From assembly GCF_001426435.1 (NCBI RefSeq), contig NZ_LMER01000020.1, positions 589,985-653,984 on the forward strand: a DNA stretch of 64,000 nt, written 5' to 3'. The notes beneath the pieces were generated by a model. That model was not told where the DNA came from. It saw nothing but the letters and a program-made list of their open reading frames with translations, and made no database searches. A program made the translations under genes and the position numbers. The DNA comes from Angustibacter sp. Root456. GTDB taxonomy: Bacteria > Actinomycetota > Actinomycetes > Actinomycetales > Angustibacteraceae. Within the stretch, counting starts at the first letter, position 1; each line of letters starts with the position of its first letter. Shown here one piece after another: positions 32,751 through 60,093 of this stretch.

Positions 32751-32756
32751 CCCCTT

Positions 32757-32824: not shown

Positions 32825-32846
32825 GCACCGACGAAGGAGAACGACG

Positions 32847-34957: not shown

Positions 34958-35017
34958 GGCACCGCACCCTACGACCCACCCCCTCGCCCCCACTCCCCTC
35001 GCCCCCTCCCCCCTCGC

Positions 35018-35102: not shown

Positions 35103-35115
35103 GAGGGTGGGGGGC

Positions 35116-37616: not shown

Positions 37617-37617
37617 G

Positions 37618-42273: not shown

Positions 42274-43464
42274 TCAGCCGTCGAGCACCGATGACGGTGA
42301 CCCCGTCTGCCGCGGCACGCGCGTGCCGAGAAGGTTGGGCAGGTCGGGCACGGTGAGGCGCCCCACGGCCGCGACGGGGAAGTTCACGGGGAAGGTCACC
42401 GAGAGCGCGGCGCCACCCTCGGGTGCACGGGAGGCGTAGAGGGAACCACCGCGTGCGTGTGCGATCTGGCGCACGATGCCCAAGCCCAGACCGGTGCCGG
42501 CCAGCCGGTCGACCGAGCCGAGCGGCGTCTCAGCCTGCTGCGGTTGCTCACCGGCGTTGATCGCCATGATCTGGCTGTCGGTGAGTCCCGTGCCGGAGTC
42601 CAGCACCGCGACGACGAACTCCGCCTCACGGCGCACGCCGAGCAGGCGGATCGTGTCGCCCGGCACCGTGTAGCGCAGCGCGTTCTCGATGAGCGTGTCC
42701 AGGCAGGTGCGCAGGCGCTCCGCCGAGCCGTGGCAGTGGCCCAGCCGGGACTTCAGCACCCAGTGGCGGTCGGCGACGATGCGCCAGCGCTCGACGGCCT
42801 GCGACAGGACGCGGTCGAGGTCGACGTCCTCGGTGACCGTGTCGTCCTGCAACCGGATCATCCGGATCAGCCGGTCGCTGACCCGTGAGAGCCGGTCGAG
42901 CTCGTCGGCGGCCACTGCGAGGTCCTGCTGGTCCTCCAAGTCGGTCACGCGCTCCTGCAGCAGCTCGACGTAGCCGCGAGCGATGGTGAGCGGGGTGCGC
43001 AGCTCGTGCGAGGTGAGGCGCATGAGGCGCTCGCGGTCGCGAGCCGCCTGGATGTCGCGCTCGGCGAGCACCCTGGCGTGGCTCAGGGCCTCCTGGCGAC
43101 GGTGGACGTGCCACACCATCAGCAGGGCCAGGGCGAACATCAGCGGGATCTCGTTGGTCTCCTGCCACTCGACGTTGCCGACAAGGGAGCTGCGGGTGAG
43201 CACCACGCCGCTCGCCACGGTGTAGCCCGCGAGGGCCGCCACCAGCTGCCAGCGATGCCAGGTGGCGAGGCCGTAGGCGAGCGCGAAACCGGCCCAGCCC
43301 AGGTGGTAGGGGATGGTCTCCTGCCCCGGCAGCACGAGCATCGCGAACGTGCACAGCGTCGCCCACACCGCCCACGCAGGGATGAGGCGGGCCCGCCACG
43401 CCGGTTCGCGGGCGTTGACCGCCGCTGTGGCCGTGTCGAGGGGGCTCCCCGATGTCGAGGTCAT
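42274..43464 (-). CDS. membrane sensor histidine kinase (multi-helix sensor)
   Basis: A 396-residue kinase. The first 125 residues hold about five helices with almost no extracytoplasmic domain, so it probably senses the membrane or an internal ligand. The H-box is RLMRLTSHELRTPLTIARGY (phosphorylated His), the N-box CLDTLIENALRYT, and the G-boxes VLDSGTGLTDSQI and GTGLGLGIVRQIAHARGG. It follows its response regulator by four bases. The pair is divergent from the secreted beta-helix/multicopper oxidase cluster and is the likely controller of it (inference from position). Confidence 0.92.
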   Translation of the reverse strand: MTSTSGSPLDTATAAVNAREPAWRARLIPAWAVWATLCTFAMLVLPGQETIPYHLGWAGFALAYGLATWHRWQLVAALAGYTVASGVVLTRSSLVGNVEWQETNEIPLMFALALLMVWHVHRRQEALSHARVLAERDIQAARDRERLMRLTSHELRTPLTIARGYVELLQERVTDLEDQQDLAVAADELDRLSRVSDRLIRMIRLQDDTVTEDVDLDRVLSQAVERWRIVADRHWVLKSRLGHCHGSAERLRTCLDTLIENALRYTVPGDTIRLLGVRREAEFVVAVLDSGTGLTDSQIMAINAGEQPQQAETPLGSVDRLAGTGLGLGIVRQIAHARGGSLYASRAPEGGAALSVTFPVNFPVAAVGRLTVPDLPNLLGTRVPRQTGSPSSVLDG

Positions 43465-43468
43465 GGCA

Positions 43469-44143
43469 TCACCGGTCGTAGACGCAGTAGCCCACGCCGC
43501 GCACCGTCTCGATGGGCGGGTCCGGCCTCAGCTTGTGGCGCAGTCGGCGGACGCAGACGTCGACGACGTTGCTGCCGGGGTCGAAGTCCAGGCCCCAGAC
43601 GTCGTGCAGGAGCTCCTCGCGCGTGCACACGTCGCCACACCGACGCATCAGGTGAGCCAGCAGCGCGAACTCGCGTTCGGTGAGGCTCACGGAGCCGGCG
43701 GCGGTCGTCGCTCGCCGCCGGTGCAGGTCGAGCTGCACGCCGCCGACCTCGAGATACCGGTTCTCTCCACGCGGGGGAGCGGGGTGCTGGTGCAGGTGGC
43801 GCCGGATGCGCGCCGTCAGCTCGGCGGTCGAGAACGGCTTGCCGACGACGTCGACGGCACCCCGATCGAGCGCCTGAACGCGCGCCGAGATGTCGGTGAC
43901 CGCCGACAGGACGATGACGGGCGGGCTGTCCTCTCGCTGACGCAGGAGCGAGAGCACCCCGAGACCACCCAGCCGGGGCATCGCGAGGTCGAGGAGTACG
44001 AGGTCGACGTGGTGCTGTGCGAGGTGCTCGAGCGCGGCCTCACCGTCAGCCGCTTCGTGCACGACGTGCCCCTGACCGGACAGCGCGCGGTGCAGGTACG
44101 TGCGGATCCGCGGCTCATCGTCGACGACCATGACCTTGGCCAT
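43469..44143 (-). CDS. OmpR/PhoB-family response regulator
   Basis: A 224-residue regulator. The receiver domain has Asp8/Asp9, the phosphoacceptor Asp52 in LVLLDLAMPR, and Lys in VDVVGKPFS. The winged-helix output domain has LTEREFALLAHLMRRCGDVCTREELLHDVWG, seen at about residues 152-182 (recognition helix VVDVCVRRLRHKL follows). The gene reads away from the large secreted protein gene, and a perfect 10-base-arm palindrome lies in the space between them. Confidence 0.94.
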   Translation of the reverse strand: MAKVMVVDDEPRIRTYLHRALSGQGHVVHEAADGEAALEHLAQHHVDLVLLDLAMPRLGGLGVLSLLRQREDSPPVIVLSAVTDISARVQALDRGAVDVVGKPFSTAELTARIRRHLHQHPAPPRGENRYLEVGGVQLDLHRRRATTAAGSVSLTEREFALLAHLMRRCGDVCTREELLHDVWGLDFDPGSNVVDVCVRRLRHKLRPDPPIETVRGVGYCVYDR

Positions 44144-44320: not shown

Positions 44321-44444
44321 GCGTGATGGGAGATGACGGCTGGATGGCGCTTCATGAGCGTTCCGTGATGCGGCTGTCCTGTGCCGGACGACCGCCCCCT
44401 GCTGGCTCGACCCTCGACGCAGAGTTCCCGTCTTGGAGGTCGTC

Positions 44445-47400
44445 ATGGGACGTCGTGTCACCCGTCTGCGGGCCGTGGTCATCACCCTCGCCGTACTCGC
44501 GCTGTGTGTCGGGCAGCTGACGCTGCCGCGGCTGGCGCAGACGGCGAAGGCGGCTGACCCCGTCGATCCGGGCAGCATCACCTTGCACGTGCAGAGCGCG
44601 CGGTCGGTCAACACCGGCCCGGGCTTCGTGCACGAGGGTGATGCCGTCACCACCTACAAGTGGCTGATCAACGCGGAGGACGTCGGCAACACGAAGGACG
44701 CGCCCGAGCACTGTCTGCCGGGGCTGGCGAGCGACCCGAAGTTCGCTGACACCTGCCAGTGGCCGTCGGTGCGCACGACGCCCGGCTACGCGCCGATCGT
44801 CGCCCAAGGCGACGAGACGACGTTGAACGACAGCGTCGCCCTGCCGGGCCTCCCTGTCGGCAAGTACCTCATCTCGCTCACGGCCGACGGCTACAAGATC
44901 GACGGCGCGCACTTCACGGTCACCTCGGGCTCGGCTCAGCAGGTCGTCGTGAAGATGCAGCCGCTTCCCCTTCCGCTGCAGACGATCCGGTTGCAGGTGT
45001 TCAACGACAACGCGCCGGTCGACGGCACGTACGAGGTCGACGCGGAGCAGGGGCTGGCCGGCTTCACGGCGAACCTCACCGACGTCCTCGGGCCGGTGTC
45101 GACCGACTACTACGGCAACCCGCTGTGCACCGTCTACCTGCACGCCGGCGGGGTCGCGACGCGACCGATCCTGTTCAACGCCGCGGGCAAGCCGCGGGTC
45201 GACACCACGAAGTCGACCGGCAAGTGCGTCAGTGACGCCGACGGCCAGATCGTGATCCCCAATCTCGGCCCGAACCGCTACGCCGCAACGGTTTCCCCGC
45301 CTGCCGGACAGGGGTGGGTGCAGACGACCACGCTCGAGGGCGGCCACGACTACGACATCTGGCAGCAGGAGGGCGAGACCGGCTTCGACACCGAGCAGAC
45401 CAAGGGTGCCGAGCTGGTGCCGTACGTGCACTTCGGGTTCTCCAAGCAGATGGCGCTGGCGGCGCCCGCTGCCGGTCAGCCGGCCCCCACGGGTGAGATC
45501 AAGGGCGTGGCCGTGGCCGCGCTGCCGTACGTCGGTGGCCAGAACGGCCAGGTCGTCCCCGAGACCGGCTTCGCCGGAGCCAAGATCGGCGGTCCGATCC
45601 GCCGTCCCTGGATCGCGCTGTCCGACCTCGACGCCGGTGACGCGGAGGTCTACCTCGGTCGCGGCGCTGTCGACGGCTCGTTCGACATCAAGAACGTCCC
45701 CGACGGCACGTACTCGCTGACCGTCTGGGACGACGACCAGGACTACATCCTGTGGGCCTTCCAGGTCGAGGTGCACGACGGCCAGCTCGTCGACGTCGGC
45801 AACAAGTCGCTCGTGGGTTGGTTCACGCACATCTACGGCTCGGTGTTCGTCGACGACAACGAGAACGGCAAGCGCGACCCGGGTGAGCAGGGCGTGCCGT
45901 CCTTCACGCTCACCCTGCGCGAGCGGGACAACTCGCTGATGGACCAGTACACGAACACCGTCATCACCGACACGGTCGGCAACTACTCGATCAACGAGGG
46001 CTACCCGCTCAGCAAGTGGCTGGTGCTCGAGGGCTTCAACACCCGGTACCAGGCCACCGGAATCACCTACCAGGCCGAGAACGACCCCAAGCCGACCACG
46101 CTGCTCGGTGGTGCGGTCGACATCAACGTGCTGAACGTGATCGGCCTCGGCGGCCGGGTCGACTGGGGCGTCAAGCCGTACGTCGGCGGTACGAACGGCG
46201 GCATCGTCGGCACCATCACCTACGACACGACCCGCAACGAGCTCGACCCCGCGGACGCGGCGGCGGAGGCCTACCAGCCGGGCGTGCCCGACGTCCCCGT
46301 GCACCTGTACGCGCCGGTGCCCTGCGAGCCGACCACACCGGCCGACGAGTGCAGCGGCGGCTTCCAGCTCGACACCGCCACGGGTGCCCTCAAGAAGGGC
46401 CCGGAGCTGCAGGAGGCCTACACCTCCGAGACGTGGCAGCCGCCTCGCGGTTGCACCGCCCGGATGTACAACGGCCAGCCGCTGACCGACCAGCAGGCGC
46501 TGTCGCAGTTCGGCCTCGCCAACGACCGCAAGTGCATCGAGGCGCCCATGATGGGCTTCCAGGTCGGTGCCGAGGTCAACTCCGGACCGGACGGCTTCAG
46601 CCAGCAGGTCAACGGCAACTACGGGTTCGCGACCTCCAAGCTGAACCTCTACGCGCCCGGCGACCCCCGCAACCCGGCCGCTGACCACCAGCTGCCGCTC
46701 TACGCCGACTTGGCCGCCCTCGGTCTGCCGGAGCAGGACCTGCGCCCGCAGGAGTACATCGTCTCGGTCGAGATCCCGCAGAACCCCGTGGGCGGCGGCG
46801 CGATGTACAAGGTCACCCGCGAGGAGGACGTCAACGTCTTCGACGGCGACACCTACCTGCCGCAGGAGAACTACCCGCCGACCGTGGCCCAGGCGACTGA
46901 CACGCCGCCGGGTGCGGGCAGCGGTGAGCCCACGCCGTCGCAGGACCCCTCGCAGACCGGCGGCATCGTCTCGGGCTGCGTCGGACCGCTGCACACGGTG
47001 CACGTGACGAACCAGAACTTCATCGACGGTGGCGGTAGCCCCTACGAGGGTCAGTCGCGGCCGCTCTGCACCGACAAGCTGGTCAACCTGCGCAACGCGC
47101 AGGCAGTGGCCCCGACGTTCAACCTCTTCAGCGACGTCCCGATCCCGACCCACTTCTGGGGTCTGACGATCAACGACCTCGGCCTCTCGCTCGACAAGCG
47201 CAGCGTCGAGTACGGCGAGGCGCAGGGCCTGCCGTTCGTGCCCATGGGCATCTACGACTGGACCGGCCGCCTGGTCGACACCGTGCAGACCGACTTCAAC
47301 GGCTTCTACGAGGCCCTCGAGCCGTCGACGTCGACCTACAACTGCCCCCTGCCCGCCGGCCCCTGCCCGAACATGTACCGGTTCGTGGGCAACGACCCGG

Positions 47401-49763
47401 GCAGTCCAGGTCACCTCAACCCGGACTACAACTCGAGGTTCCGCACCATCGCGACGAACTTCCAGGCGTGGCCGGGGCTGTACACGGTGACCGACACCGC
47501 ACCGACCCAGGTGCAGGCGACAGCCCTGACGCCGGGCACCACCCAGGTCGACCGCACGATGTGCGACCTCGACCCCGCGCAGCCCCAACCGCTGGCGGTC
47601 GACCGGCCGTACATCCGGCGGGGTGACACCAACCGCGCGATCACCATCACCGGCTTCGGTTTCGGTGCCCTGAAGGGGCAGGTGCTGCTCAACGGCCAGC
47701 CCACCGGAGTGCCGAGCTGGACGGACAAGCAGATCACCTTCAACGTCCCGAACGCGACGGCCTTCGGCCCGACGTCAGTGGAGGTCGTGGCGCGCAACGG
47801 AAAGCGGAGCGTCAACGGTCTGACCGTGCAGGTGCTGAGCGCCCCGACGCTGATCGGGCCGCAGGGACGCACCCCGCAGAACCCGCTGATCGCTGAGGTC
47901 GGCCCCGGCAAGCCCTACGCCACCATCCAGGCAGCGCTCGAGGCCGCCAAGCCGACGTCGACCAAGCCGTACTGGCTCGTCGTGGTGTGGCCGGGCGAGC
48001 AGACCGCCGGCAACCCGCACGGTGAGTACACCGAGAACGTGATCTTCCACCACCAGGTGCGACTGCAGGGTGTTGGTGCCGGCGGCTTCGACCCGGACGG
48101 CAACTTCGTCCCCGGCTCGATCATCGACGGCGCCGGCTTCAACCCCGACAACCCCAGCGGCGCCGACTGGATCGCCCTGCTGAGCACCTTGCGCTACAAC
48201 GGGCCGGCCGCGGTGCCGGACGCCGCGACGGTCACGGTGCTCAACGACCCGCAGCTGGCCGGCGTGGTGCCGTCGACCTACTTCCCGGCGATCGACGGCT
48301 TCACGATCACCGGTGGGTCGCAGTCGGACTTCCCGGCGAGCATCAACGAGGTCAACGGCGGCATCAAGACGCCGTACGGCGCCGACGGTGCGCTCGTGAC
48401 GCAGGGCGGCGGCGTGTTCGTCCACTCCGGCGTCATGAACCTGCGAATCACCGACAACGTCATCCGTGGCAACAGCGGCTCCTACGCCGGTGGCATCCGC
48501 GTGGGCACGCCGTACGCCGGCAACCTGCGCAACTACAACCTGTACGTCGGCCACAACCAGATCCGCGACAACGGCGGCACCAACCTCGCCGGCGGCATCG
48601 GGCTCTTCAACGGCAGCGACGGCTACCAGATCGACCACAACGCGATCTGCGGCAACTTCTCTGCCGAGTACGGCGGCGCCATGACGGCCTACGGCTACAT
48701 GGTGCACCCGGCGCAGGACTCCCAGCTCGGCGTCCTGCCGGGTGGGCGGGTCACTGACAACACGATCTGGTTCAACCAGTCGTACGACGAGGGTGGCGCG
48801 GTGATGATCGCCGGCGAGCTGCCGTCCGACCCGTCGCTGCTCTCGGAGGGATCGGGCCCGGTGCTCATCGACTCCAACGTCATCTCGACCAACCTGGCCA
48901 ACGACGACGGCGGTGGCATCCGGCTGCTGCAGACGAGCGGGTCGCACATCACGCGCACCGACCCGCAGACGATCACCATCTCCAACAACACGGTGACCGA
49001 CAACGTCTCGGCGCACGAGGGCGGTGGCCTGGCCTTCGACGACGCAGCCTTCGTCGACGTCGTCAACAACACGGTCGCTCGCAACCTCACCACCGCCACC
49101 GCGATCACCAGCGACGGGCAGCCGGCACCGGCCGGGCTGTCGACGGCGAACAACTCCGACCCGCTGATGGCTCGCCTGAGCAGCACCGCCTTCCGGTTGT
49201 CGAACCTGCTGTCGCAGACCACGTTCAGCAAGCCGACGCTGCTCAACAACGTGTTCTGGGACAACCGGGCCGGCAGCTACAGCGGTGGCTACGTCTACGG
49301 CATCGGAGGCCAGCTGCCGGACGGCTCGCCGAACGACGTCAACAACTGGGACATGGGCGTCGCCGATGACCCCGCGGCCTTCCTGACGCCGATCTCGTCG
49401 GTGCTGCAGACGACACAGGGTGTGGATGTGGGCACCACCAACGTGGTCACCAACGACCCCGGCCTGAAGGACCCCTACGAGGTGACGGTCAACATCCTCG
49501 CCGCCCGTGGCTACCCGGCGTACCGCCAGGCCGCCATCGTCGCCGAGCTGCTGCCGCCGCACCTGCAGGGCGACTACCACCTGACCGGATCCACGTCCCC
49601 TGCCTACGGCCTCGGCACCGGCTTCACGACGGTCGCCTGGGACTCGCGGGCCATCGGTTGGCACTACACGGTCTCGGCACCCAGCCGCGACATCGACGGC
49701 GACGTCCGGCCCTCGCCGGCACCCGCGCTGAGGTACGACGCCGGATCGGACCAGCTGTCATGA
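44445..49763 (+). CDS. secreted 1,772-residue protein: SdrD-B-like, TIG and parallel beta-helix domains
   Basis: The signal peptide occupies about residues 1-40 (basic start MGRRVTRLR, hydrophobic core VVITLAVLALCVG, AKA cleavage). The middle carries SdrD-B/Cna-B-like domains, with a calcium-type loop VFVDDNENGKRDPGEQGVP near 465. A TIG/IPT domain at about 1055-1145 contains ITITGFGFGALKGQVLLNG. The last 600 residues are a right-handed parallel beta-helix with repeated N-x-V-x-x-N steps (DNVIRGNSGSYAGGI, HNAICGNFSAEYGGA). There is no LPXTG or C-terminal helix, so it may be secreted or noncovalently bound. GGAGG precedes ATG 44445. It heads the cluster with three multicopper-oxidase-like genes and may scaffold them (inference). 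Confidence 0.85.
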   Translation: MGRRVTRLRAVVITLAVLALCVGQLTLPRLAQTAKAADPVDPGSITLHVQSARSVNTGPGFVHEGDAVTTYKWLINAEDVGNTKDAPEHCLPGLASDPKFADTCQWPSVRTTPGYAPIVAQGDETTLNDSVALPGLPVGKYLISLTADGYKIDGAHFTVTSGSAQQVVVKMQPLPLPLQTIRLQVFNDNAPVDGTYEVDAEQGLAGFTANLTDVLGPVSTDYYGNPLCTVYLHAGGVATRPILFNAAGKPRVDTTKSTGKCVSDADGQIVIPNLGPNRYAATVSPPAGQGWVQTTTLEGGHDYDIWQQEGETGFDTEQTKGAELVPYVHFGFSKQMALAAPAAGQPAPTGEIKGVAVAALPYVGGQNGQVVPETGFAGAKIGGPIRRPWIALSDLDAGDAEVYLGRGAVDGSFDIKNVPDGTYSLTVWDDDQDYILWAFQVEVHDGQLVDVGNKSLVGWFTHIYGSVFVDDNENGKRDPGEQGVPSFTLTLRERDNSLMDQYTNTVITDTVGNYSINEGYPLSKWLVLEGFNTRYQATGITYQAENDPKPTTLLGGAVDINVLNVIGLGGRVDWGVKPYVGGTNGGIVGTITYDTTRNELDPADAAAEAYQPGVPDVPVHLYAPVPCEPTTPADECSGGFQLDTATGALKKGPELQEAYTSETWQPPRGCTARMYNGQPLTDQQALSQFGLANDRKCIEAPMMGFQVGAEVNSGPDGFSQQVNGNYGFATSKLNLYAPGDPRNPAADHQLPLYADLAALGLPEQDLRPQEYIVSVEIPQNPVGGGAMYKVTREEDVNVFDGDTYLPQENYPPTVAQATDTPPGAGSGEPTPSQDPSQTGGIVSGCVGPLHTVHVTNQNFIDGGGSPYEGQSRPLCTDKLVNLRNAQAVAPTFNLFSDVPIPTHFWGLTINDLGLSLDKRSVEYGEAQGLPFVPMGIYDWTGRLVDTVQTDFNGFYEALEPSTSTYNCPLPAGPCPNMYRFVGNDPGSPGHLNPDYNSRFRTIATNFQAWPGLYTVTDTAPTQVQATALTPGTTQVDRTMCDLDPAQPQPLAVDRPYIRRGDTNRAITITGFGFGALKGQVLLNGQPTGVPSWTDKQITFNVPNATAFGPTSVEVVARNGKRSVNGLTVQVLSAPTLIGPQGRTPQNPLIAEVGPGKPYATIQAALEAAKPTSTKPYWLVVVWPGEQTAGNPHGEYTENVIFHHQVRLQGVGAGGFDPDGNFVPGSIIDGAGFNPDNPSGADWIALLSTLRYNGPAAVPDAATVTVLNDPQLAGVVPSTYFPAIDGFTITGGSQSDFPASINEVNGGIKTPYGADGALVTQGGGVFVHSGVMNLRITDNVIRGNSGSYAGGIRVGTPYAGNLRNYNLYVGHNQIRDNGGTNLAGGIGLFNGSDGYQIDHNAICGNFSAEYGGAMTAYGYMVHPAQDSQLGVLPGGRVTDNTIWFNQSYDEGGAVMIAGELPSDPSLLSEGSGPVLIDSNVISTNLANDDGGGIRLLQTSGSHITRTDPQTITISNNTVTDNVSAHEGGGLAFDDAAFVDVVNNTVARNLTTATAITSDGQPAPAGLSTANNSDPLMARLSSTAFRLSNLLSQTTFSKPTLLNNVFWDNRAGSYSGGYVYGIGGQLPDGSPNDVNNWDMGVADDPAAFLTPISSVLQTTQGVDVGTTNVVTNDPGLKDPYEVTVNILAARGYPAYRQAAIVAELLPPHLQGDYHLTGSTSPAYGLGTGFTTVAWDSRAIGWHYTVSAPSRDIDGDVRPSPAPALRYDAGSDQLS

Positions 49764-49815: not shown

Positions 49816-51084
49816 GTGACTGACGACACCGCTCGCCGCGGACTCTCGCGACGGACCTTCATCTCCGGCGGTGCCGGCCTGGCCGCCGCCGTCACGGGGG
49901 CGCACCTCGTCGGCGGCCAGGTCGCGCAGGCGGCGCGGCGCACCTCGCTCGCGGCGGCGGTCACGCACCCGCGGGTCGACATGCACCTCGTCGGCACCGA
50001 CGGCTGGGTGTCGATGCCGGCAGCAGCGCCCGCGGACCCGCCGTTCTTCCCCGACTCCTACGCTCCTTCGCCGTTCAACACCTACGTGTTCGGCTTCCGG
50101 GACGTCACGGGGCTGTCGGACACGCAGGTGGCGGCGCAGCGGGGCAAAGCGCAGATCAGCGCTCCGATGCTGTCGTTCGACGAGGAGGACGACATCTACC
50201 TCACGTTGACGAACCTCGGCCTGGTGCAGCGTCCGGACCTCTTCGACGGACACACCCTGCACTGGCACGGTTTCGTCAACGCGATCCCGCTCTTCGACGG
50301 CGTCCCTGAGCTCTCGCTCGCCGTGCCCATCGGCCGCGACCTCACCTACTTCTACCGCCCTCACGACGCGGGCACGTACATGTACCACTGCCACTTCGAG
50401 GACGTCGAGCACGTGCAGATGGGCATGACCGGCATGGTGTTCGTGCGGCCGAAGCAGAACAAGAGCCCGCGAGTCCCAGGAGAGCGGTACGCCTACAACG
50501 ACGGCGACTACAGCACGGCCTACGACCGCGAGTTCGCGTTCATGATCACCGAGCTGTGGTCGGCCGCCCACTACCGGGACGCGCACATCCAGGTGAACGA
50601 CTGGACCGACTACGACCCGAGCTTCTGGCTGCTCAACGGCCGCGCCTGGCCAGACACGTTGCAGCCCAACGGCGATCCCATGACGAGCACCGGACGGCTG
50701 AAGTACCAGCCGATCAGCTCGCTCATCACGTGCAACGCCGGCGACCGCGTGCTGCTGCGGCTCTCGAGCCTCGGCTACCAGAACCACGCCATGACCATCG
50801 ACGACATCACGATGACGGTCGTCGCCAAGGACGCCGCGCTCCTGGAGGGCCGGGACCACACAAAGTCGTACATCACCACGAACACCGTCGACGTCGGCCC
50901 CGGCGAGAGCCGCGACGTCATCTTCACCGCGCCCGACCCGGGGACCTACCTGCTGTACGACCGCCGGTACTCCTACCTCGGCAACGGAGGCGGCCCGGGC
51001 TACGGCGGCATGATGACGCGCATCGTGGTCAACCCGCCGGGCACGCTGCCGCGGCAAGTGAACGCCAACGAGAACCCGGTCTGA
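49816..51084 (+). CDS. Tat-exported two-domain multicopper oxidase subunit with domain-1 copper ligands only
   Basis: A 422-residue protein. The Tat signal is SRRTFISGGAGLAAAV (residues 11-26). Cupredoxin domain 1 contains DGHTLHWHGF (HxH at 149/151) and MYHCHFEDVEHVQMGM (His191, Cys192, His193, His199, Met204). These supply a type 1 copper set plus half of a trinuclear site. Cupredoxin domain 2 lacks its half: where HxH is expected it reads SLGYQNHAMTIDD, and the final motif position reads LLYDRRYSYLGNGGG. Alone it therefore cannot complete a canonical trinuclear centre. GTG 49816 follows GAGGAG. The next gene supplies a domain-2 ligand set. Confidence 0.9.
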   Translation: MTDDTARRGLSRRTFISGGAGLAAAVTGAHLVGGQVAQAARRTSLAAAVTHPRVDMHLVGTDGWVSMPAAAPADPPFFPDSYAPSPFNTYVFGFRDVTGLSDTQVAAQRGKAQISAPMLSFDEEDDIYLTLTNLGLVQRPDLFDGHTLHWHGFVNAIPLFDGVPELSLAVPIGRDLTYFYRPHDAGTYMYHCHFEDVEHVQMGMTGMVFVRPKQNKSPRVPGERYAYNDGDYSTAYDREFAFMITELWSAAHYRDAHIQVNDWTDYDPSFWLLNGRAWPDTLQPNGDPMTSTGRLKYQPISSLITCNAGDRVLLRLSSLGYQNHAMTIDDITMTVVAKDAALLEGRDHTKSYITTNTVDVGPGESRDVIFTAPDPGTYLLYDRRYSYLGNGGGPGYGGMMTRIVVNPPGTLPRQVNANENPV

Positions 51085-51106
51085 CCGGGCCGGACGGAGG
51101 ACCACG

Positions 51107-52399
51107 ATGAGCACCACACCACGCGCCCGTCTCCGGCTGGCCCTGTCAGCAGCGCTCGCGACCGCCATGGCCGCAGCCGCTCTGGCCACGCTGCCTCAGG
51201 CAGAAGCGGCCCCGTCATCGGGGCTGCCGTGCGACACCGCACCCGACAACGCGTTCTCGCTCACTGCGAGCGACGGCTACGTCTCGACCCCCGACGGCAA
51301 CTCCATCTACATGTGGAGCTACGGCAACTCCAAGCGCGGGTTCCAGCTGCCCGGGCCGACCCTCTGCGTGACGTCCGGCCAGCAGGTGACGGTCGTCCTG
51401 CACAACACACTGCCGGAGGCGACCTCGATCATCTTCCCCGGGCAGTCCGGCGTCCGGGCCGGCGGGAGCCCCGCGCAGCCGCAGTTCGACAGCGGTGGCT
51501 CCCTGACCTCGATGGTGCAGGCGGCCGCGCCGGGCAAGCAGGTGACGTACACGTTCACGGCCGGGAGCCCCGGCACCTACCTGTACGAGAGCGGCACCGA
51601 CGTCGACAAGCAGGTGCAGATGGGCATGTACGGCGCGCTCGTCGTGCGGCCGGCTGGCCACCCGGACCAGCTCAACAACCGCGTGGACTCGACGTTCAAC
51701 GCGGACAAGGACTACGTGTTCCTGCTGTCCGAGATCGCGCCCGACGTCCACCTCGCGGTGGAGCGGGGCCAGGCGGTCGACCCGAGCAGCTACCGCGCCC
51801 GGTACTTCATGATCAACGGCCGCAGCATGCCGGACACCCTGGCGCCGAACTTCGCGTCGTGGCTGCCGACCCAGCCGTACAGCGCGCTCGTGCACATCAA
51901 GCCGTACGACGCGGCGACCAACCCCCGGCCGGCGGCGATCCGCTACCTCAACGCGGGCAGCGTCAACTTCCCGTTCCACCCGCACGGCAGCGACGAGCGG
52001 GTCGTCAACCGCGACGGCCGTCCGCTCGAGGGTCCGGACCACCAGGACCTGTCGTACCTGAAGTACCTGCTCGACGTCGGCCCGGGCCAGACCCTCGACG
52101 TCCTCATGGACTGGCGTGACGCGGAGTCGTGGGACCCGGTGGACAACCCGATCCCGACCCAGATCCCGGTGATCACCGACCAGGACCTCGTCGGTCCCGA
52201 CACGTGGTTCAGCGAGAGCGGCTACCTCGGCGTCAAGAACGAGCTGCCCACGAACATCACGTCGAACAACGAGTGCGGCGAGTACTACCACATCGCTCAC
52301 AGCCACGCGCTGGAGCAGGCAACCAACTACGGCGCGGCCTTCGGCGGCATGATGACGGTCTTCCGCATCGACCCGCCCAACGGCTGCCCGACGAACTGA
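51107..52399 (+). CDS. Sec-exported multicopper oxidase-like protein with domain-2 copper ligands only
   Basis: A 430-residue paralogue of the preceding protein. The signal peptide is about residues 1-34 (LALSAALATAMAAAALATLPQAEA). Domain 1 has lost its ligands: the HCH position reads TYLYESGTDVDKQVQMGM and the HxH position reads TSIIFPGQSGV. Domain 2 keeps NFPFHPHGSDE (His291, His293) and EYYHIAHSHALEQ (His395, His398, His400). The latter looks like an HCH motif with Ser in place of the type 1 Cys. This pattern complements the upstream protein. GGAGG precedes ATG 51107 by six bases. Cys42 and Cys87 could form a disulfide. Confidence 0.9.
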   Translation: MSTTPRARLRLALSAALATAMAAAALATLPQAEAAPSSGLPCDTAPDNAFSLTASDGYVSTPDGNSIYMWSYGNSKRGFQLPGPTLCVTSGQQVTVVLHNTLPEATSIIFPGQSGVRAGGSPAQPQFDSGGSLTSMVQAAAPGKQVTYTFTAGSPGTYLYESGTDVDKQVQMGMYGALVVRPAGHPDQLNNRVDSTFNADKDYVFLLSEIAPDVHLAVERGQAVDPSSYRARYFMINGRSMPDTLAPNFASWLPTQPYSALVHIKPYDAATNPRPAAIRYLNAGSVNFPFHPHGSDERVVNRDGRPLEGPDHQDLSYLKYLLDVGPGQTLDVLMDWRDAESWDPVDNPIPTQIPVITDQDLVGPDTWFSESGYLGVKNELPTNITSNNECGEYYHIAHSHALEQATNYGAAFGGMMTVFRIDPPNGCPTN

Positions 52400-52408
52400 G
52401 GACGGGCG

Positions 52409-55400
52409 ATGACGATGCAGACGCGTTCGCGAAGCGGCGGCTCGACCCGTCGGACGCTTGCCGTGGCGGTGACGGCGGCTCTTGCCCTGGTCGGCTGGCA
52501 GCCGGCGAGTGCGGCGACCCGGCCCGCCGGCTCGGCTGCGGCGGCTCAGGCCGCCGGGGTGCGGTCGGCGCTGCCGGCCGCACCGGTCGGCCACCTGCAG
52601 CCGAGCGGCTGCACGGGAACCGGCTCGGTGCTGTGCGAGCTCTACGCCAGCGCAGGCACCACCACGGTGGCGGGCACGGCGATCCCCATCTGGGGCTTCT
52701 CGTCGACGGCGGGGTCGGCGTCCACGCCCGGGCCCGTGCTCGTCGTACACCAGGGCGACAGCGTGCGGATCCGGCTGCACAACGACCTGGCCGCAGAGCG
52801 CGTCTCGCTGGCCCTGCCGGGTATCGACGGGGTCACGTGGGGCACGCGCCACGACGACGACACGGCCGGCGTCGCCACGGGCGGCACCCGCATCTACAGC
52901 TTCACCGCGTCGCGGCCGGGCACGTTCCTGTACGAGGCGGGCCACACCGCCAACGGCACGCGCCAGGTGGCGATGGGCCTGGCCGGCGCGCTCGTGGTGC
53001 TCCCGGCTGACGGCACCGCCTACGGGTCGCAGACCGGCTACCCCTCGACCGCGTACGACGACGAGGCCGTCCTGGTGCTGTCGGAGATCGACCCCAAGCT
53101 GAACGCCGACCCGACCGCCTTCGACATGCGGTACTTCTCGCCGCGGTTCCGGCTCGTCAACGGCAAGGCGTTCCCCGAGACCGACGTGATCAGCACCGAC
53201 CAGGGCCACAAGGTCCTGCTGCGCTACGTGAACGCCGGGTCGCAGTTGCACGCCATGAGCACGCTGGGCGTCGACCAGGTCGAGGTGGCGCAGGACGGCC
53301 ACGCGATGAGGTACGCCTCGACCGTCGTGGCTGAGGACATCGTGCCTGGGCAGACGCTCGACACGATCGTCACGGCCCCCACCGGCCAGGAGTCGAAGGT
53401 TGCGGTGTACGAGGCCGCCTCCCGGCTCAGCAACGACGGCCAGCACGCGGCGAACCCGCTTCAGCTGGCCTTCGGGGGGATGCTCACCTACATCGACACC
53501 AACGCGCCGCCGCCCAGCACGGACGACGTGGGGCCGTTGGCAGACAACATCTCTCTCTCGCCGCAGCCGGCGTCCGGCCTCGTCGACGTGACGGTGCGCG
53601 CCGACCTCAGCGATGGTGCCACCGGCGGTTCGTCGGTGACCCAGGCCGAGTTCGTCGTCGACGACACGAGCACCGCGCTGGGCGCGGGCACGCCGATGTA
53701 CGGCGCGTTCGGTTCCGTCGACGTGACCGGTGTCGTCGGCACGCTGTCGACCGCCGCGATGGCTGATCTCCAGGCGGGCAAGCACATCGTGTTCGTGCGG
53801 GCCCAGGACTCAGCCGGCAACTGGGGGGTGGTCGCCTCCGCGGTCCTCAACCTGCCGAAGGTCGGTCCGCAGACCAGGAGCGGCACGGCGTCCGACAACC
53901 CGACGAACGGGGCCAGCGACGTCAGCATCACCGCCACGGGCGACGACCGGACCCTCGGCGGCAACATCGACGCGGCCGAGTACTCCATCGACGTCGAGGC
54001 GGCCCCGGGGTCAGGCACCGTCATGACGCTCAACAAGATGGCACCGGTGGTGTCGGAGACCGCGACCATCCCGGCCGCGACGGTGGCCGGTCTGGGTGAC
54101 GGCAAGCACATCGTCTACGTCCGCAGCCACGACTCCGGTGGGCTCTGGGGGCCGACGCACAGCATCGAGCTCGTGGTCGACCTGGCCGGCCCGGTGGTCG
54201 ACGCGGCGTCGGTCGGACCCAACCCGACCAACGGCATCCTGAGCGACAAGGGCAACCCGGGCTACCTGCTGGTGTCGGCGCACCTCGTCGACCAGCCCGG
54301 TCCCGGCGGCTCGGTGTCGACCCTCAAGGACGCGGAGGCGTTCCTCGACCTCGCGGCCGGAGCCCAACCCGCGGGCGGCAGCGGCCTGCAGCTCATCGCA
54401 GTGGACGGGTCGATGGACGCCTCCGACGAGGCGGTCTACGGGCTCCTCCCGCTGTCGCAGGTGAAGGCGCTGACCAACGGCACGCACCGGTTGTACGTGC
54501 GAGGGCTGGACGCCGCCGGCACGTGGGGCGACGTCTACGTCACCGATCTGCTCGTCGACAAGACGGCTCCCGTGTTGTCGGGCCTGAGCGCCAGCCCGAA
54601 CCCGACCGCCGGTGCACCGCAGATCACGCTCACCACGACCGTCACCGAGGCGAACACGATCGCGGCGGCCGAGTACTGGGTCGGCACCACCGACCCCGGT
54701 GCCGGGCGGGCGACCTCGGCGGCGAGCGTCAGCACCGCGGGCACGCAGCTCACGGTCGACGTCTCGACGGCGAACCTCGCCCGGGGTGCGCAGCGGATCA
54801 ACCTGCGGGTCAGGGACCTCGCGGGCAACTGGAGCAACGCCGTCGCGACCACCGTGACGGTCGAGCCGCCCAACGCGATCTTCTCCGACGACTTCGAGTC
54901 CGGCAGCATCGCGGCCTGGTCGTCGTCGGTGGGCGCAAGCGGCCTGGCGGTCACTGGTACGGCGGCCCTCGCCGGCACCGAGGGTCTGGCGGTGACCCAG
55001 CCGTCCGGCGGCACCGCGCGGTACCTGGTCGACACCACTCCCAGCGCGGAGCCGACGTACCACGCGCAGTTCCGGTACAGCGCCGGCACGTGGGTCGGCG
55101 GCGTGACGACGGTGTTCCAGGGGATGTCGAGCACGAACGCGCCGGTGCTTGCCGTGCAGGTACGCAAGAGCGGAAGCACCTACCAGGTGCGCGGCGTCCT
55201 GCGTCGCTCGACGGGCACGAACGTCACCGGCACCTGGGTGTCGCTCACCAGCGGACCGCACACGCTGCGGGTCGACTGGGCGGCGGGGACCGCCGGCACC
55301 TTGCAGCTGTCGGTGGACGGCGTCGCCAAGCAGCTGCTCACCGCGGCCAACTCGACGCTGCGCGTCGAGACCGCACAGCTCGGGGCGGTCACCGTCGCGA

Positions 55401-55462
55401 GCACCACCCACGGCGTCGCGTACTTCGACTCGTTCGAGTCGACCCGTCAGACGCTGCCGTAG
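52409..55462 (+). CDS. exported ligand-free multicopper oxidase-like protein with Ig-like repeats and jelly-roll domain
   Basis: A 1,017-residue protein. An export signal ends near ASAA (residue 36; the STRRTLAVAV start could be Tat-like). Residues about 60-370 are the same two-cupredoxin layout as the two upstream proteins, but no copper motif survives (domain 1: TFLYEAGHTANGTRQVAMG; domain 2: GSQLHAMSTLGVDQ). Four Ig-like repeats of about 110 residues follow (SLSPQPASGLVDVTV, SDNPTNGASDVSI, GPNPTNGILS, SASPNPTAGAPQI). The C-terminal 190 residues start DDFESGSIAAW, a jelly-roll/LamG-like domain often used for carbohydrate or surface binding. It is most likely the structural and anchoring subunit. 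A perfect 15-base hairpin follows. Confidence 0.87.
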   Translation: MTMQTRSRSGGSTRRTLAVAVTAALALVGWQPASAATRPAGSAAAAQAAGVRSALPAAPVGHLQPSGCTGTGSVLCELYASAGTTTVAGTAIPIWGFSSTAGSASTPGPVLVVHQGDSVRIRLHNDLAAERVSLALPGIDGVTWGTRHDDDTAGVATGGTRIYSFTASRPGTFLYEAGHTANGTRQVAMGLAGALVVLPADGTAYGSQTGYPSTAYDDEAVLVLSEIDPKLNADPTAFDMRYFSPRFRLVNGKAFPETDVISTDQGHKVLLRYVNAGSQLHAMSTLGVDQVEVAQDGHAMRYASTVVAEDIVPGQTLDTIVTAPTGQESKVAVYEAASRLSNDGQHAANPLQLAFGGMLTYIDTNAPPPSTDDVGPLADNISLSPQPASGLVDVTVRADLSDGATGGSSVTQAEFVVDDTSTALGAGTPMYGAFGSVDVTGVVGTLSTAAMADLQAGKHIVFVRAQDSAGNWGVVASAVLNLPKVGPQTRSGTASDNPTNGASDVSITATGDDRTLGGNIDAAEYSIDVEAAPGSGTVMTLNKMAPVVSETATIPAATVAGLGDGKHIVYVRSHDSGGLWGPTHSIELVVDLAGPVVDAASVGPNPTNGILSDKGNPGYLLVSAHLVDQPGPGGSVSTLKDAEAFLDLAAGAQPAGGSGLQLIAVDGSMDASDEAVYGLLPLSQVKALTNGTHRLYVRGLDAAGTWGDVYVTDLLVDKTAPVLSGLSASPNPTAGAPQITLTTTVTEANTIAAAEYWVGTTDPGAGRATSAASVSTAGTQLTVDVSTANLARGAQRINLRVRDLAGNWSNAVATTVTVEPPNAIFSDDFESGSIAAWSSSVGASGLAVTGTAALAGTEGLAVTQPSGGTARYLVDTTPSAEPTYHAQFRYSAGTWVGGVTTVFQGMSSTNAPVLAVQVRKSGSTYQVRGVLRRSTGTNVTGTWVSLTSGPHTLRVDWAAGTAGTLQLSVDGVAKQLLTAANSTLRVETAQLGAVTVASTTHGVAYFDSFESTRQTLP

Positions 55463-55529: not shown

Positions 55530-56066
55530 ATGAGTGTTGTGGGAGAGCTGATGGAGGTGCCGCAGGGGCCGGCGCCCACGCAGCCCGGGCTGGCGACCCA
55601 CCTGCGCGGGCACCTCGCCGCCTGGTCGGCGGCGCAGTGGGTGAGCGCGGTGCTGACGGTGCTGGCGCTCGCCCTCGGTGGGCTCGTGGCCCGCAACGTG
55701 GTGGTGCACCAGGCGACGCACGACGTGAGCGTGCCGCGCAGCGGGGCCATGGAGCTGGCGACGGGCGTGCGGTTCGACCGCGTGGCCGTCGTCGGTGACG
55801 GTGGGCTGGTCGAGGTCAGCTTCGTCGCGCTCGACGTCGACAAAGCGCAGGCCTTCATGGAGGACTCCGCGAACTCGCCCACGATCCGCGCGGAGGACCG
55901 CGCCGGTGGCACCGAGCGCATCTCGGTGATGAGGCAGGGCCACAACATGCGCCCGGGACAGACGTACTACTTCGTCTACCAGAACACCGGCGGCGCGGTG
56001 CGCCCCGGTGAGCACGTCACGCTCGTGGTCGGCTCCCAGCAGCTGCGGCACGTGCCGGTGCGGTGA
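55530..56066 (+). CDS. membrane-anchored extracytoplasmic protein upstream of copC-copD
   Basis: A 178-residue protein with one membrane helix (about residues 37-56) and an exported C-terminal domain of roughly 115 residues. That domain is rich in beta strands, with ERISVMRQGHNMRPGQTYYF carrying His and Met residues that could bind copper. ATG 55530 follows GAAGGGGAGA. The stop codon overlaps the next gene's ATG (TGATG), so it is translationally coupled to the CopC-CopD fusion and probably works with it. I do not recognise the family; a copper-delivery role is inference from position and the His/Met content. Confidence 0.75.
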   Translation: MSVVGELMEVPQGPAPTQPGLATHLRGHLAAWSAAQWVSAVLTVLALALGGLVARNVVVHQATHDVSVPRSGAMELATGVRFDRVAVVGDGGLVEVSFVALDVDKAQAFMEDSANSPTIRAEDRAGGTERISVMRQGHNMRPGQTYYFVYQNTGGAVRPGEHVTLVVGSQQLRHVPVR

Positions 56067-58054
56067 TGAGCCCCCACCCCCGTCGCCTGCCTCGCTGGTC
56101 GGCTCGTCTCGTCGCCCTCGGTGTCGCGCTCACGGCCCTGGTGTGGCTCGGTGCACCGGCCGCTCACGCTCACACGTTCCTCGTGGGGAGCAACCCCGCG
56201 GACGGCCAGGTCCTCGACACGGCCCCGGCTACGCTGCGTCTGGACTTCAGCGAGGCGCTCGTGCTGGGTGCCACCCAGGTGAGCCTCACCGACGGACACG
56301 GAACCCGGGTGATGCCGGTATCCATCACCGTCGCGTCAGCTCGTGACGGCGCCGACACCGAGCAGCCGGTGCAGGTGGCCGTCACGCTGCCCCACCTGCC
56401 ACGCGGCACCTACCGCGTCGCGTGGAAGACCCTCTCCGCCGACGACCTCCACCAGGCCTCCGGTGTCCTGGCGTTCGGCGTCGGCGAGCAGGTCGGCGCG
56501 GTAGGGGTGGTCGACGAGGCCCCGGGGCTCAGCGAGGCGGCGACGCGATGGGTGATGTGGTCGTGCCTGGCCGGGCTGCTCGGGCCGCTGGTCGTCGCGG
56601 CGCTCGCGGGTCGCACGCTGCGGGGGCGACGGCGCTCGCGGCTGGTGCGCCTGGCGCGTGCAGCGGGCGCCGTCCTCGTGGCCGCGTCCGTGGTGCTGCC
56701 CGCGGCCCAGCTGCGGTCAGTGAGCCAGGCCTGGCTCGCGGCGCACGACCCGGCCCTCGGTGTGGCGTGGGTGCTGCGTGTCGTCGGTGCTGTCGTGGCT
56801 CTGGCGCTGGTCGGGCGGGCGATCCGCCAGGTGACCGAGCGAGGCCTGCGCCCGACGCTGGGCCGCTACCCGGCCGAGTCGGCGCTGCTGGTCGCTGCGC
56901 TGCTGCTCGTGCCGGTGGTCAGCGGCGTCCGCGGGCACATCTGGTCGTCGTCGCACCCGCTGGTCGTCGCGGAGGTCCTCCACATGGTGGCCGCTGCGAC
57001 CTGGGCCGGTGCCGTCGTCGCCCTGGCGGTGATCCACGCGGGTGGGCGGGGCCTGCGTCCAGCCGTGCCGGCCCGGGCCTTCGCGTTGCTGTCGGCGACG
57101 TGCGTCGCGGTGGCCGTCGCCACCGGCTTCCTGCTCGCCGGGCACGGCGTGGCCACCACCACGGCGCTCCTGAGTGCGCGGTACGGCGTCACCCTGGTCG
57201 TCAAGAGCGCGCTGATCGGTGCCGTGCTGCTCCTGGCGCTGCGCAACCACCGGCAGGGACGAGCTGACGGTGTCGTCGGCGCGTCCGGCCGCCGCGGCGT
57301 CGCAGTCGAGGCCGCGTTGCTGGTGAGCGTGCTGGCCACCGCGGGGCTGCTCGCAGCGACGTCGCCCGCCAACTCACCGCAGTGGACGCCGGGCCCGGCG
57401 GCGTCCCGCTCGGTGGCCCTGCACGCCGACGACCTGCTCGTGCAGGTGTCGATCGGCCCCAACGCCGTCGGTCCGGCGTACGCCAACGTCAGCGTGCTCG
57501 AGACGCGCAGACCCGCGCCGGCACCCGTCCACGCGGTGCGCGTCACGTTGCGCCGCACCGGTTCGACCCCCGTCACCGGCGTTGCCTCCGCACACCCCGA
57601 CGGAACGTGGGCGCTGCCGCTGCAGGTGCCGGAGGCCGGCCCATGGCACCTCACCGTCGAGGCGGAGCGCGCCGGACTGCCCGTCGCGACAGCTCGTGGC
57701 ACGTGGGTGGTGGCAGGTGGCGTCCACGGCCCTGTGGGGCGCGAGCTCGCGTCGCTGACGACACCGGCCGCGGCCCTCGTCGCGCTCGGCTGGCTGGCCT
57801 TGCTGCTCCTACTGCGCCGTGACCGCAGCGTCGCTCGCAGCACCCTCCCGAGCTCCACCCGGACTCGGCGTCCGACCAGACGACCACGACCAACCCCCCA
57901 CCCATCGTGGCCGTACCGGACGTCGCCGGAGGCTGTGTCCCCGCACAGTCCCGGAGGTGCCGGCTCCCCCGGTGGCCGCTGTGCCACCGGGGGAGCTGGT
58001 GGCACCGACCGCCGTGCTCCTGTGGTCGCTCCGACCGCCCCGACCGCCCGGTAG
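56066..58054 (+). CDS. CopC-CopD fusion, copper-binding and copper transport membrane protein
   Basis: A 662-residue protein. After a signal peptide ending AHA comes a CopC domain (about residues 35-140) with the copper-site His at the mature N terminus (HTFLVGSNPADGQVL) and DDLHQASGVLAFGV near its end. The CopD part (about 155-450) has eight or so helices with HIWSSSHPLVVAEVLHMVAAAT carrying conserved His residues. An extracytoplasmic domain and one more helix follow, and the last 80 residues are Pro/Arg/Ser-rich. Family role: copper uptake or delivery in the periplasm or cell wall. Here it probably supplies the neighbouring multicopper oxidase. The C-terminal tail overlaps a terminator-like hairpin, so its true end is uncertain. 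Confidence 0.88.
   Translation: MSPHPRRLPRWSARLVALGVALTALVWLGAPAAHAHTFLVGSNPADGQVLDTAPATLRLDFSEALVLGATQVSLTDGHGTRVMPVSITVASARDGADTEQPVQVAVTLPHLPRGTYRVAWKTLSADDLHQASGVLAFGVGEQVGAVGVVDEAPGLSEAATRWVMWSCLAGLLGPLVVAALAGRTLRGRRRSRLVRLARAAGAVLVAASVVLPAAQLRSVSQAWLAAHDPALGVAWVLRVVGAVVALALVGRAIRQVTERGLRPTLGRYPAESALLVAALLLVPVVSGVRGHIWSSSHPLVVAEVLHMVAAATWAGAVVALAVIHAGGRGLRPAVPARAFALLSATCVAVAVATGFLLAGHGVATTTALLSARYGVTLVVKSALIGAVLLLALRNHRQGRADGVVGASGRRGVAVEAALLVSVLATAGLLAATSPANSPQWTPGPAASRSVALHADDLLVQVSIGPNAVGPAYANVSVLETRRPAPAPVHAVRVTLRRTGSTPVTGVASAHPDGTWALPLQVPEAGPWHLTVEAERAGLPVATARGTWVVAGGVHGPVGRELASLTTPAAALVALGWLALLLLLRRDRSVARSTLPSSTRTRRPTRRPRPTPHPSWPYRTSPEAVSPHSPGGAGSPGGRCATGGAGGTDRRAPVVAPTAPTAR
57963..57996. 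terminator. hairpin between convergent copper and electron-transfer operons
   Basis: GCTCCCCCGGTGGC (57963-57976) pairs perfectly with GCCACCGGGGGAGC (57983-57996), loop of six bases. It lies inside the low-complexity 3' tail of the CopC-CopD frame and 69 bases from the convergent ferredoxin stop (58065). It could terminate both transcripts. Confidence 0.65.
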
Positions 58055-58064: not shown

Positions 58065-58268
58065 TCAGCGGGCTGGGACGTCGACGAGCCGCAGGGCGAG
58101 CGTCGGGCACGCCGTCACCGCCTGGCGCGCCAGCTCGACCAGGTCGTCCGGCAGCTCGCCCACCACGGGGTAGCCCCACTCGTCGAGGCCGACGACCTCG
58201 GGCAGCAGCTCGTGGCAGAGGCCGTGCGCACTGCAGCGCGGCCAGTCGACGCGCAGCCGCCGGCTCAT
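58065..58268 (-). CDS. small ferredoxin (CxxHxxC...CP type)
   Basis: A 67-residue ferredoxin. The cluster motif is RCSAHGLCHELLPE with a distant ACPTLAL, so the second ligand position is His rather than Cys, as in actinobacterial 3Fe-4S-type ferredoxins that serve cytochromes P450. ATG 58268 overlaps the stop of the NuoF-like gene (ATGA). As the last gene of a five-gene coupled operon it probably passes electrons to or from the NuoF-like flavoprotein. Confidence 0.9.
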   Translation of the reverse strand: MSRRLRVDWPRCSAHGLCHELLPEVVGLDEWGYPVVGELPDDLVELARQAVTACPTLALRLVDVPAR

Positions 58269-59551
58269 CGACCGCTCCGCGGGCCGCCGGCGAGCTGGTG
58301 CGGTGGCTGCCTCGGGGCACGGCCTCGTGCGTCACCTGCCCAGTGGCAGCGGCCCTCGAGGTGCTGGGCGACCTCGACGGGGAAGCGGTCGAGCAGCGAG
58401 CGCACCAGCCGGGCGGTGCCGTCGGGGTGCGCGCACGCGCCGCGGCCGGTGACGACACCCGCGAGCTCGAGCAGGCGCCGATCGTCACCACCGGCTCGGG
58501 CAACCCGCTCCAGCTCGGCGGCCAACGCCGGCAGGCCGAACCGGCACGGACCGCAGCGCCCGGCGGACTCGCCCGCGAGGTACGTGACGATCCCTGACGT
58601 GCGTGTCACCGGGCAGATCCCTTGCGGCAGAGGCAGGACGACGCCCGCGCCGAGGGCGAAGCCGGCGACTGCGAGCGCGTTACGGTCGAGTCGCGCCGAC
58701 TCGACGTCGGTGCCCGTGAGCCAGGTGCCGTGGTACCCACCGAGCAACACCGGCATCCCGGGCAACCACCGGGTCGACAGCGCCTCGACCAGCCGGCCGC
58801 CACCGGGGGCCTCCAGCACCTCAGGGGCTGGACCGTCGCCGTCCACCGTCAGCAGCACGGTGCCCGGGGTGCTCGGGTTGCCGTAGGCCGCGTACGCCCT
58901 GGGGCCCAGTCGGCTCACGGCGGCGACGTGGGCGAACGTCTCGGCGTTAGACAGCAGCGTCGGGCGCCCGCGATGGCCGCTGACGGCTTCTGGTGCCCAC
59001 GCGGTCACGGGCTTGTTCTCGCGCCCGGCCATCAGCTCGAGCACCGCCCGGGCCTGCCCGGCGACGAACCGGTCGGCGGCCTGGTGCAGGTGCCAGCGCA
59101 CGCGTTCTCCCGCCTTGCGCCGCTCGCGGACGGCGGCCGCGACGGCCTGCACCATCGCCGGCCGGGCGCTCGGCACCACGACGTGGACCTCGCGCGTGCC
59201 GAGGGCGCGTGCGGTCACCACCGCACCGTCGAGCACCAGGTGCGGCACGCGGGTCACGAGCGCTTCGTCCTTGTGGCTCGCGGGCTCGCCCTCGGACGCG
59301 TTGACCACCACCAGTGCGCGGCGTCGTGCCGCCGTGGTGAGCTTGCGGGAGAAGGGAAATCCCGCGCCACCCCGTCCGCGCAGCTGAGTCTCGTCAGTCC
59401 ACGCGGCCAGCGTCGCCACGTCGAGCTCCGGAACCGGGCCGAGCCGCGAGCGGTGGGCAGCCCACGACGCGTCGCGGCCGACGTCCGCCAGCAGCAGCGT
59501 GCCCTCGCGGACGACGAGGGGCGTATGCGCGGCGACCGGCGCGCGACTCAC
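58265..59551 (-). CDS. NuoF-like flavoprotein (NADH dehydrogenase 51-kDa-type, SLBB-containing)
   Basis: A 428-residue cytoplasmic protein. The FMN/NADH-type motif LRGRGGAGFPFSRK (about 58), NASEGEPASHKDEALV (about 85) and the cluster motif ESAGRCGPCRFGLPAL with a later GACAHPDG Cys match NuoF/HoxF. The usual glycine-rich NADH site is partly altered, with SEGEPASHKD replacing DEGEPGTFKD, so donor specificity is uncertain. GTG 59551 overlaps the upstream stop (GTGA); longer upstream frames read as Arg/His-rich noise. It probably oxidises NAD(P)H or ferredoxin and feeds the membrane protein encoded at 59548-60093. Confidence 0.88.
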   Translation of the reverse strand: MSRAPVAAHTPLVVREGTLLLADVGRDASWAAHRSRLGPVPELDVATLAAWTDETQLRGRGGAGFPFSRKLTTAARRRALVVVNASEGEPASHKDEALVTRVPHLVLDGAVVTARALGTREVHVVVPSARPAMVQAVAAAVRERRKAGERVRWHLHQAADRFVAGQARAVLELMAGRENKPVTAWAPEAVSGHRGRPTLLSNAETFAHVAAVSRLGPRAYAAYGNPSTPGTVLLTVDGDGPAPEVLEAPGGGRLVEALSTRWLPGMPVLLGGYHGTWLTGTDVESARLDRNALAVAGFALGAGVVLPLPQGICPVTRTSGIVTYLAGESAGRCGPCRFGLPALAAELERVARAGGDDRRLLELAGVVTGRGACAHPDGTARLVRSLLDRFPVEVAQHLEGRCHWAGDARGRAPRQPPHQLAGGPRSGR

Positions 59552-60093
59552 GACGACACCAGCTCGTCGCGGCGCAGCGTCACCAGGCGGGTCGCGGCGG
59601 CCAGCAGGACGGCGACGACGCACCCCACGGTGACCGCGACGCTCCACGGCTCGCCGGCGTCGGTGCCGATCCCGATCCCGTGCACCACGCCGAGGGCGAA
59701 CACCGCGTACGTCGACACGTGGATCGCCCGCCACAGCCCGTGGCGCATGCGGTGGCGCAACAGGCTGGTGCCCGCGGCGGCGAGCATGAGATCGAAGGCG
59801 AGCGTGCCGAGAGACAGCCAGAACGGCCGGTACGTCGCGCCGAACGGCACCAGCGCCTGCCACCACCGGATGTCGACGTACTCATCGATCACGGCGGTGC
59901 CGGCGTGCGCGAGAGTGAGCGCCACGCCGAGGAGCGCGACGTTGCGGTGCAGTCCCTGGGTGAGGAAGCGAGGCCACAGGCGCGAGCCGGCCCGGGCGGT
60001 TGACAGCACGCCCAGCACGGTCGACAGGGTCACCACGACCAGCAGCACCACGCCGGTGCCTCGGTTGGCGAACCACAGCGCCGGGCCATGCAT
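59548..60093 (-). CDS. ferric-reductase-like transmembrane haem protein
   Basis: A 181-residue protein with five or six helices and paired His residues on two helices: LTQGLHRNVALLGVALTLAH and GLWRAIHVSTYAVFALGVVH. This is the b-haem pattern of ferric reductase / YedZ (MsrQ)-like proteins. ATG 60093 overlaps the apbE stop (TGATG). It is the membrane conduit of the operon, expected to move electrons from the cytoplasmic flavoprotein/ferredoxin to an extracytoplasmic acceptor. In similar actinobacterial loci that acceptor is an FMN-bearing protein made by ApbE; none is evident here. Confidence 0.88.
   Translation of the reverse strand: MHGPALWFANRGTGVVLLVVVTLSTVLGVLSTARAGSRLWPRFLTQGLHRNVALLGVALTLAHAGTAVIDEYVDIRWWQALVPFGATYRPFWLSLGTLAFDLMLAAAGTSLLRHRMRHGLWRAIHVSTYAVFALGVVHGIGIGTDAGEPWSVAVTVGCVVAVLLAAATRLVTLRRDELVSS

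Follow-up and report, generated by a model that had tools for sequence, protein, structure and literature searches.

A putative heteromeric multicopper oxidase of Angustibacter sp. Root456 with copper ligands divided between two paralogous proteins

In the textbook cases, the active sites of multicopper oxidases are located between identical subunits or inside one chain. A locus of Angustibacter sp. Root456 raises the question of whether such a site can also be divided between two different gene products. The window, which is the whole stretch of 64,000 nucleotides that was analysed, contains adjacent genes for three cupredoxin proteins, referred to here as subunits A, B, and C. A sequence-only reading had proposed that A and B form a heteromer with a single composite active site.

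Subunit A (49816-51084, plus strand) is a two-domain cupredoxin protein of 422 aa with a Tat-like signal (SRRTFI). Its translation contains all the type 1 copper ligands together with the half of a trinuclear site that belongs to domain 1. The domain 1 ligand region (50251-50427, plus strand) possesses H149-W-H151, H191-C192-H193, H199, and M204, exactly the residues named in the sequence-only reading, as well as the remaining type 1 histidine, H146, which that reading had not listed, and M202. Domain 2 was said to have lost its motifs, and only an isolated His324 is found there. All eight domain 1 ligands (H146, H149, H151, H191, C192, H193, H199, and M204) are kept in 89 of 89 homologues, both by alignment and by a motif recheck without alignment. 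The HCH motif stood in one of the six peptide patterns that gathered these homologues, so its conservation is partly selected. The selection used neither the HWH of A nor any ligand of B, and these are therefore independent evidence. Overall, domain 1 of A is more conserved than domain 2.

Subunit B (51107-52399, plus strand; 430 aa) is also a two-domain cupredoxin protein and has a Sec-like signal. Its domain 1 is without ligands, with TYLYESGT at the HCH position and no HxH. The domain 2 ligand region (51977-52306, plus strand) contains H291-P-H293 and H395-I-A-H398-S-H400, which represent the other trinuclear half-site, and Ser399 takes the place of the type 1 Cys. Both the loss in domain 1 and the motifs kept in domain 2 were named in the sequence-only reading and are borne out by the translation. 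H291 and H293 are present in 85/85 homologues and H398 and H400 in 84/85, where one sequence is truncated; these counts were obtained by alignment and rechecked by motif without alignment. H395 is kept in 51 of the 85 and is thus not a conserved ligand. Between the last two histidines the homologues have Ser, Asn, or Ala and never Cys (n = 85), and a motif search without alignment found HCH nowhere in any of them (0/85). Mean conservation is 0.48 for domain 2 of B versus 0.55 for domain 1, which counts against the simple expectation that the active domain would be under tighter constraint. The full type 1 set and the eight trinuclear histidines of the multicopper oxidase superfamily are reached only by A and B together.

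Approximately 85,000 species genomes were scanned, and 79 loci were collected from Actinomycetota, Chloroflexota, and Bacillota. All of these (79/79) keep the split, and none was found with a full ligand set in one protein or with one partner alone. The genes are ordered A, then B, then C on one strand in every locus of sufficient length, and the five loci without a recovered subunit B all stop at a contig or fetch edge. The same triplet is present in Cupriavidus metallidurans, on a chromid. Each of the three subunits has its own open frame in all complete loci, in place of a six-domain single chain. No natural A-B fusion was found in any collected locus, nor any homologue among viral contigs.

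The sequence-only reading had looked to co-occurrence as well as ligand conservation, and the genome samples agree with it. Among 297 genomes of the same order, A was found in five and B in the identical five. Among 396 genomes of the phylum, A was found in three and B in the identical three; there were two extra weak B-profile matches (approximately 85 bits) in A-less genomes of this sample, and the stretches fetched from these genomes encode whole two-domain oxidases whose HCH is in domain 2. Together, these two evenly drawn samples comprise approximately 690 genomes. The cassette is sporadic. The host genome has a single A, B, C set, and a second genome of the host's genus has none. Kribbella pratensis possesses two divergent copies of the cassette, L069 and L011, whose A proteins are 46% and 76% identical to that of the window. 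Oscillochloris sp. ZM17-4 has an extra B-C pair a few kb ahead of a full cassette (L044, 235-4920 and 9851-15000), and the subunit A of this first copy would fall past the fetched edge.

Two-domain oxidases are classed by the position of the type 1 copper, which in type C is in domain 1 (PMC13151041). This is the arrangement of A, which has type 1 ligands in domain 1 only, while B has none at all. A type 1 Cys in domain 2, as in the SLAC group, is found in neither, the second domain of A being without ligands. Subunits A, B, and C all match Cu-oxidase families in Pfam and have two cupredoxin domains, as in type C; for none of the three proteins was there a curated NCBIfam family above its own cut-off.

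Subunit C (52409-55462, plus strand; 1017 aa) consists of a two-domain cupredoxin part (about residues 60-375) and Ig-like C-terminal repeats. It had been taken for a third cupredoxin protein, and this proved right; the cupredoxin part possesses no copper ligands. Among 66 homologous C cores, no ligand motif was found at the four site positions, and any HxH is present in only three. The C subunits of Bacillota are bare two-domain units, and those of Actinomycetota carry long extra domains. It is probable that the ligand-less subunit C belongs to the active partnership.

Just upstream of A is a gene for a beta-rich protein of 1776 aa (44433-49763, plus strand) with SdrD_B-like, CarboxypepD_reg-like, IPT/TIG, and beta-helix regions. 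A homologue adjoins the cassette in 76 of the 79 loci, a linkage about as tight as that among A, B, and C themselves. Its domain order is the same in Bacillota, and 222 of its positions are conserved at 90% or more. In Cupriavidus, subunit C runs on into an SdrD_B and Ig/cadherin-like region that resembles this protein, which suggests contact of C with the 1776-aa protein.

Other genes of the region were also explored. A small protein of 178 aa (55530-56066, plus strand) has one predicted membrane segment, one conserved histidine (H138), and no annotation or Pfam match; homologues are found in 57 of the 79 loci, and it is a candidate assembly or copper-delivery factor. It is followed by a CopC-CopD-like copper protein (56063-58054, plus strand; homologue in 47/79 loci). 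On the minus strand there are a histidine kinase (42274-43464) and a response regulator (43469-44143), with homologues in 36/79 and 42/79 loci. Adjacent minus-strand frames at 58265-61049 were read from their translations as NuoF-like, ferric-reductase-like membrane, and ApbE-like (FMN transferase) proteins, so that the copper genes may be closely followed by a module for flavin electron transfer. Translations at 31152-38796, upstream of the copper genes, indicate a histidine-utilisation cluster with HutH, HutU, HutI-like, and other proteins.

The arrangement of the subunits was explored with structure models. Among solved structures, A and B are both closest to the Nitrosomonas europaea two-domain oxidase 3g5w, a type C enzyme, to which subunit A alone was matched with Z 28.9 over 280 residues in a fold search. 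Since A and B of the window are in different reading frames, the Kribbella orthologue L011, in which they share a frame, was modelled. A and B were folded as one chain, with the stop codon read as Gly and the signal peptide of B as a long linker; the read-through serves the modelling only and implies nothing about the gene itself. This model reached a pLDDT of 86 and a pTM of 0.87, and its low-confidence stretch is the linker (376-413). Residues 4-801 of this copper-free model, in which the linker may have an effect, match the three-domain oxidase 6vow over 377/409 residues at 2.7 A (Z 24.5). Since B domain 2 ends close to residue 801 and the chain of 6vow ends with its third domain, B domain 2 in the model sits on A domain 1 as domain 3 sits on domain 1. 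In laccases of the three-domain kind, the trinuclear site lies where domain 3 meets domain 1. Thus, B domain 2 is predicted to stand where the third domain completes the trinuclear site. A prediction with the half-sites far apart would have spoken against the composite site, and here B domain 2 is set against A domain 1.

A second model joined A, B, and C of locus L075 (15 rows). Its pTM was 0.41, the subunits were not confidently packed, and the arrangement is uninterpretable; the fold search matched single subunits only, with 6vow matching 256 residues of B, or two domains. An alignment of the A and B model to ceruloplasmin by Foldseek had an rmsd near 16 A and was discarded. Sequence comparison did not reveal a relation to MnxG, and 9bxa appears solely as a fold match.

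The complementary conserved ligands, the co-occurrence, the synteny, and the L011 model all support the heteromer of the sequence-only reading. Very probably, the paralogues A and B are obligate partners in a heteromeric multicopper oxidase with one trinuclear centre at the A/B interface. Domain 1 of A would hold the type 1 copper with H146, C192, H199, and M204. It would also give H149, H151, H191, and H193, and domain 2 of B would give H291, H293, H398, and H400, so that the eight histidines could form a single trinuclear copper centre. Electrons would enter at the type 1 copper of A and pass within A along the Cys192-His191/His193 path to the shared centre, where O2 would be reduced. We infer that the sites are loaded with copper, that the chemistry is that of an oxidase, and that the subunits are present one each. 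Subunit C would complete a pseudo-threefold ring as its third member, and either its extension or its connection with the 1776-aa protein could anchor the enzyme to the cell surface.

In the loci outside Bacillota, the Tat motif in its strict form (RRxF) is present in A in 34/67 loci, in B in 1/61, and in C in 0/62, and a Sec-like hydrophobic segment is present in B in 61/61 and in C in 61/62; these are motif counts and do not amount to signal-peptide predictions. It appears from such motifs that A may exit folded via Tat and that B and C may exit unfolded via Sec. With different export routes, a shared centre would assemble outside the cytoplasm, and this is probably where the trinuclear site is put together. 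The Bacillota proteins start straight at the first domain, have no signal peptide, and seem not to be exported.

The relationships of the subunits were inferred from a tree of A, B, and C with ten other sequences, of which one proved to be a C homologue and the remaining nine, mainly type B, are ordinary two-domain oxidases. One branch sets off the A subunits (100/100) and another the B subunits (96/95), and B and C group together (99/97); type C enzymes are absent from the tree, so the root of A, B, and C is not placed. The split between Bacillota and the rest is repeated within A, within B, and within C. These patterns fit a history of triplication at an early stage, complementary losses in the copies, and inheritance of the whole set as one unit, and the best reading is that the enzyme stems from type C two-domain oxidases. 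We lean towards a fuller history in which a type C homotrimer was triplicated and complementary loss of half-sites made the A-B-C heterotrimer obligate, with one interface live and the other two dead. The result would resemble a ceruloplasmin ring encoded by three separate genes. Its half-sites would take different export routes and meet only outside the cell, on a giant protein of the surface or the spore.

Other explanations of the locus were considered. Subunit A could carry electrons as a blue copper protein, and B could bind copper or serve as a scaffold, with their histidine pairs as relics and no trinuclear site. Domain 2 of A and domain 1 of B have clearly lost their sites, as this would suppose, but relics would drift, and the exactly complementary halves are invariant in 84-89 homologues across phyla. 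In addition, A keeps all four trinuclear histidines of domain 1, which would be superfluous in a protein that only carries type 1 copper, and so this explanation is quite improbable. A copper nitrite reductase-like complex of A and B with a mononuclear type 2 site is harder still to credit. It would share the fold and the type 1 copper in domain 1, and NirK structures rank among the best fold matches. However, the HCH of A with the HxH and HSH of B gives eight histidines, a trinuclear pattern, and the NirK model scores only 39 bits for A and 33.3 bits for B against a cut-off of 296.3.

Two further explanations leave the A/B site in place. In one, A and B would form the active site within an A-A-B or A-B-B ring, and C would act apart from them at the surface or in electron transfer. 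C is not confidently placed by any model, and the long extra domains of the Actinomycetota proteins would suit such a role. This is unlikely, however, since in complete loci the cupredoxin pair of C keeps its syntenic position beside A and B, C mirrors the tree split of A and B, and in Bacillota it is reduced to the bare two-domain unit. The enzyme could also be a manganese or iron oxidase that forms minerals at the cell or spore surface, a split counterpart of MnxG, which acts on spores (PMC5622069). The lack of signal peptides in the Bacillota members and the presence of Spo0A in 8 of 9 Bacillota carrier genomes tested would agree with this, and a spore location in Bacillota is a reasonable inference. 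Moorella mulderi has a Mn-catalase-family gene and a Coat_F gene near its cassette (L079, 4503-5255 and 17508-18074), the first of which is shared only by the related Moorella locus L081; these neighbours would also agree with such a role. However, coat-gene neighbours are found in Moorella alone, and MnxG is a six-domain protein with its type 1 site placed otherwise (PMC3600357). A mineral-forming role is thus possible but doubtful.

The proposed A/B enzyme can be compared with several known systems. It is most like the type C oxidases (3g5w and the metagenomic 2zwn), which also consist of two cupredoxin domains with the type 1 copper in the first, and in which a trinuclear site is likewise expected between domain 1 and domain 2 of different subunits. 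In type C, however, each chain has both half-sites and the trimer is made of like subunits, whereas here the halves are on different gene products, and two of the three interfaces would be ligand-less; A lacks the domain-2 half and B the domain-1 half. Type B laccases (SLAC) are also homotrimers with trinuclear sites at their interfaces, but their type 1 copper is in domain 2, where Cys is never found here. The six-domain oxidases (ceruloplasmin, Fox1, and MnxG) similarly have three two-domain units and one trinuclear site, the rest having been lost. They are one chain with type 1 copper in an even domain, and in the bacterial ones the trinuclear site is between domains 2 and 3 and the type 1 copper in domain 2 (PMC3600357). 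Here there are three genes, and the type 1 set is in domain 1 of A. The heterodimeric fungal laccases of the POXA3 type are laccase-like enzymes of two different subunits, but the catalytic site is in the large one and the small one is credited with stabilising it (PMC10741624). The Mnx complex (MnxE3F3G) is likewise a multicopper oxidase that depends on partner proteins (PMC5622069). The literature searched, outside of which most subscription papers fall, yielded no enzyme whose paralogous subunits share the trinuclear ligands between them.

It appears that different subunits here share one multicopper oxidase site and that a third copy has been kept without ligands, over at least four phyla. 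The cassette would offer a natural case for testing how an enzyme with symmetry can become an obligate heteromer by complementary loss, a route comparable to that proposed for ceruloplasmin and its relatives, minus the gene fusion. Each of the genes would on its own be annotated as a defective laccase, and so single-gene expression or screening would miss the enzyme.
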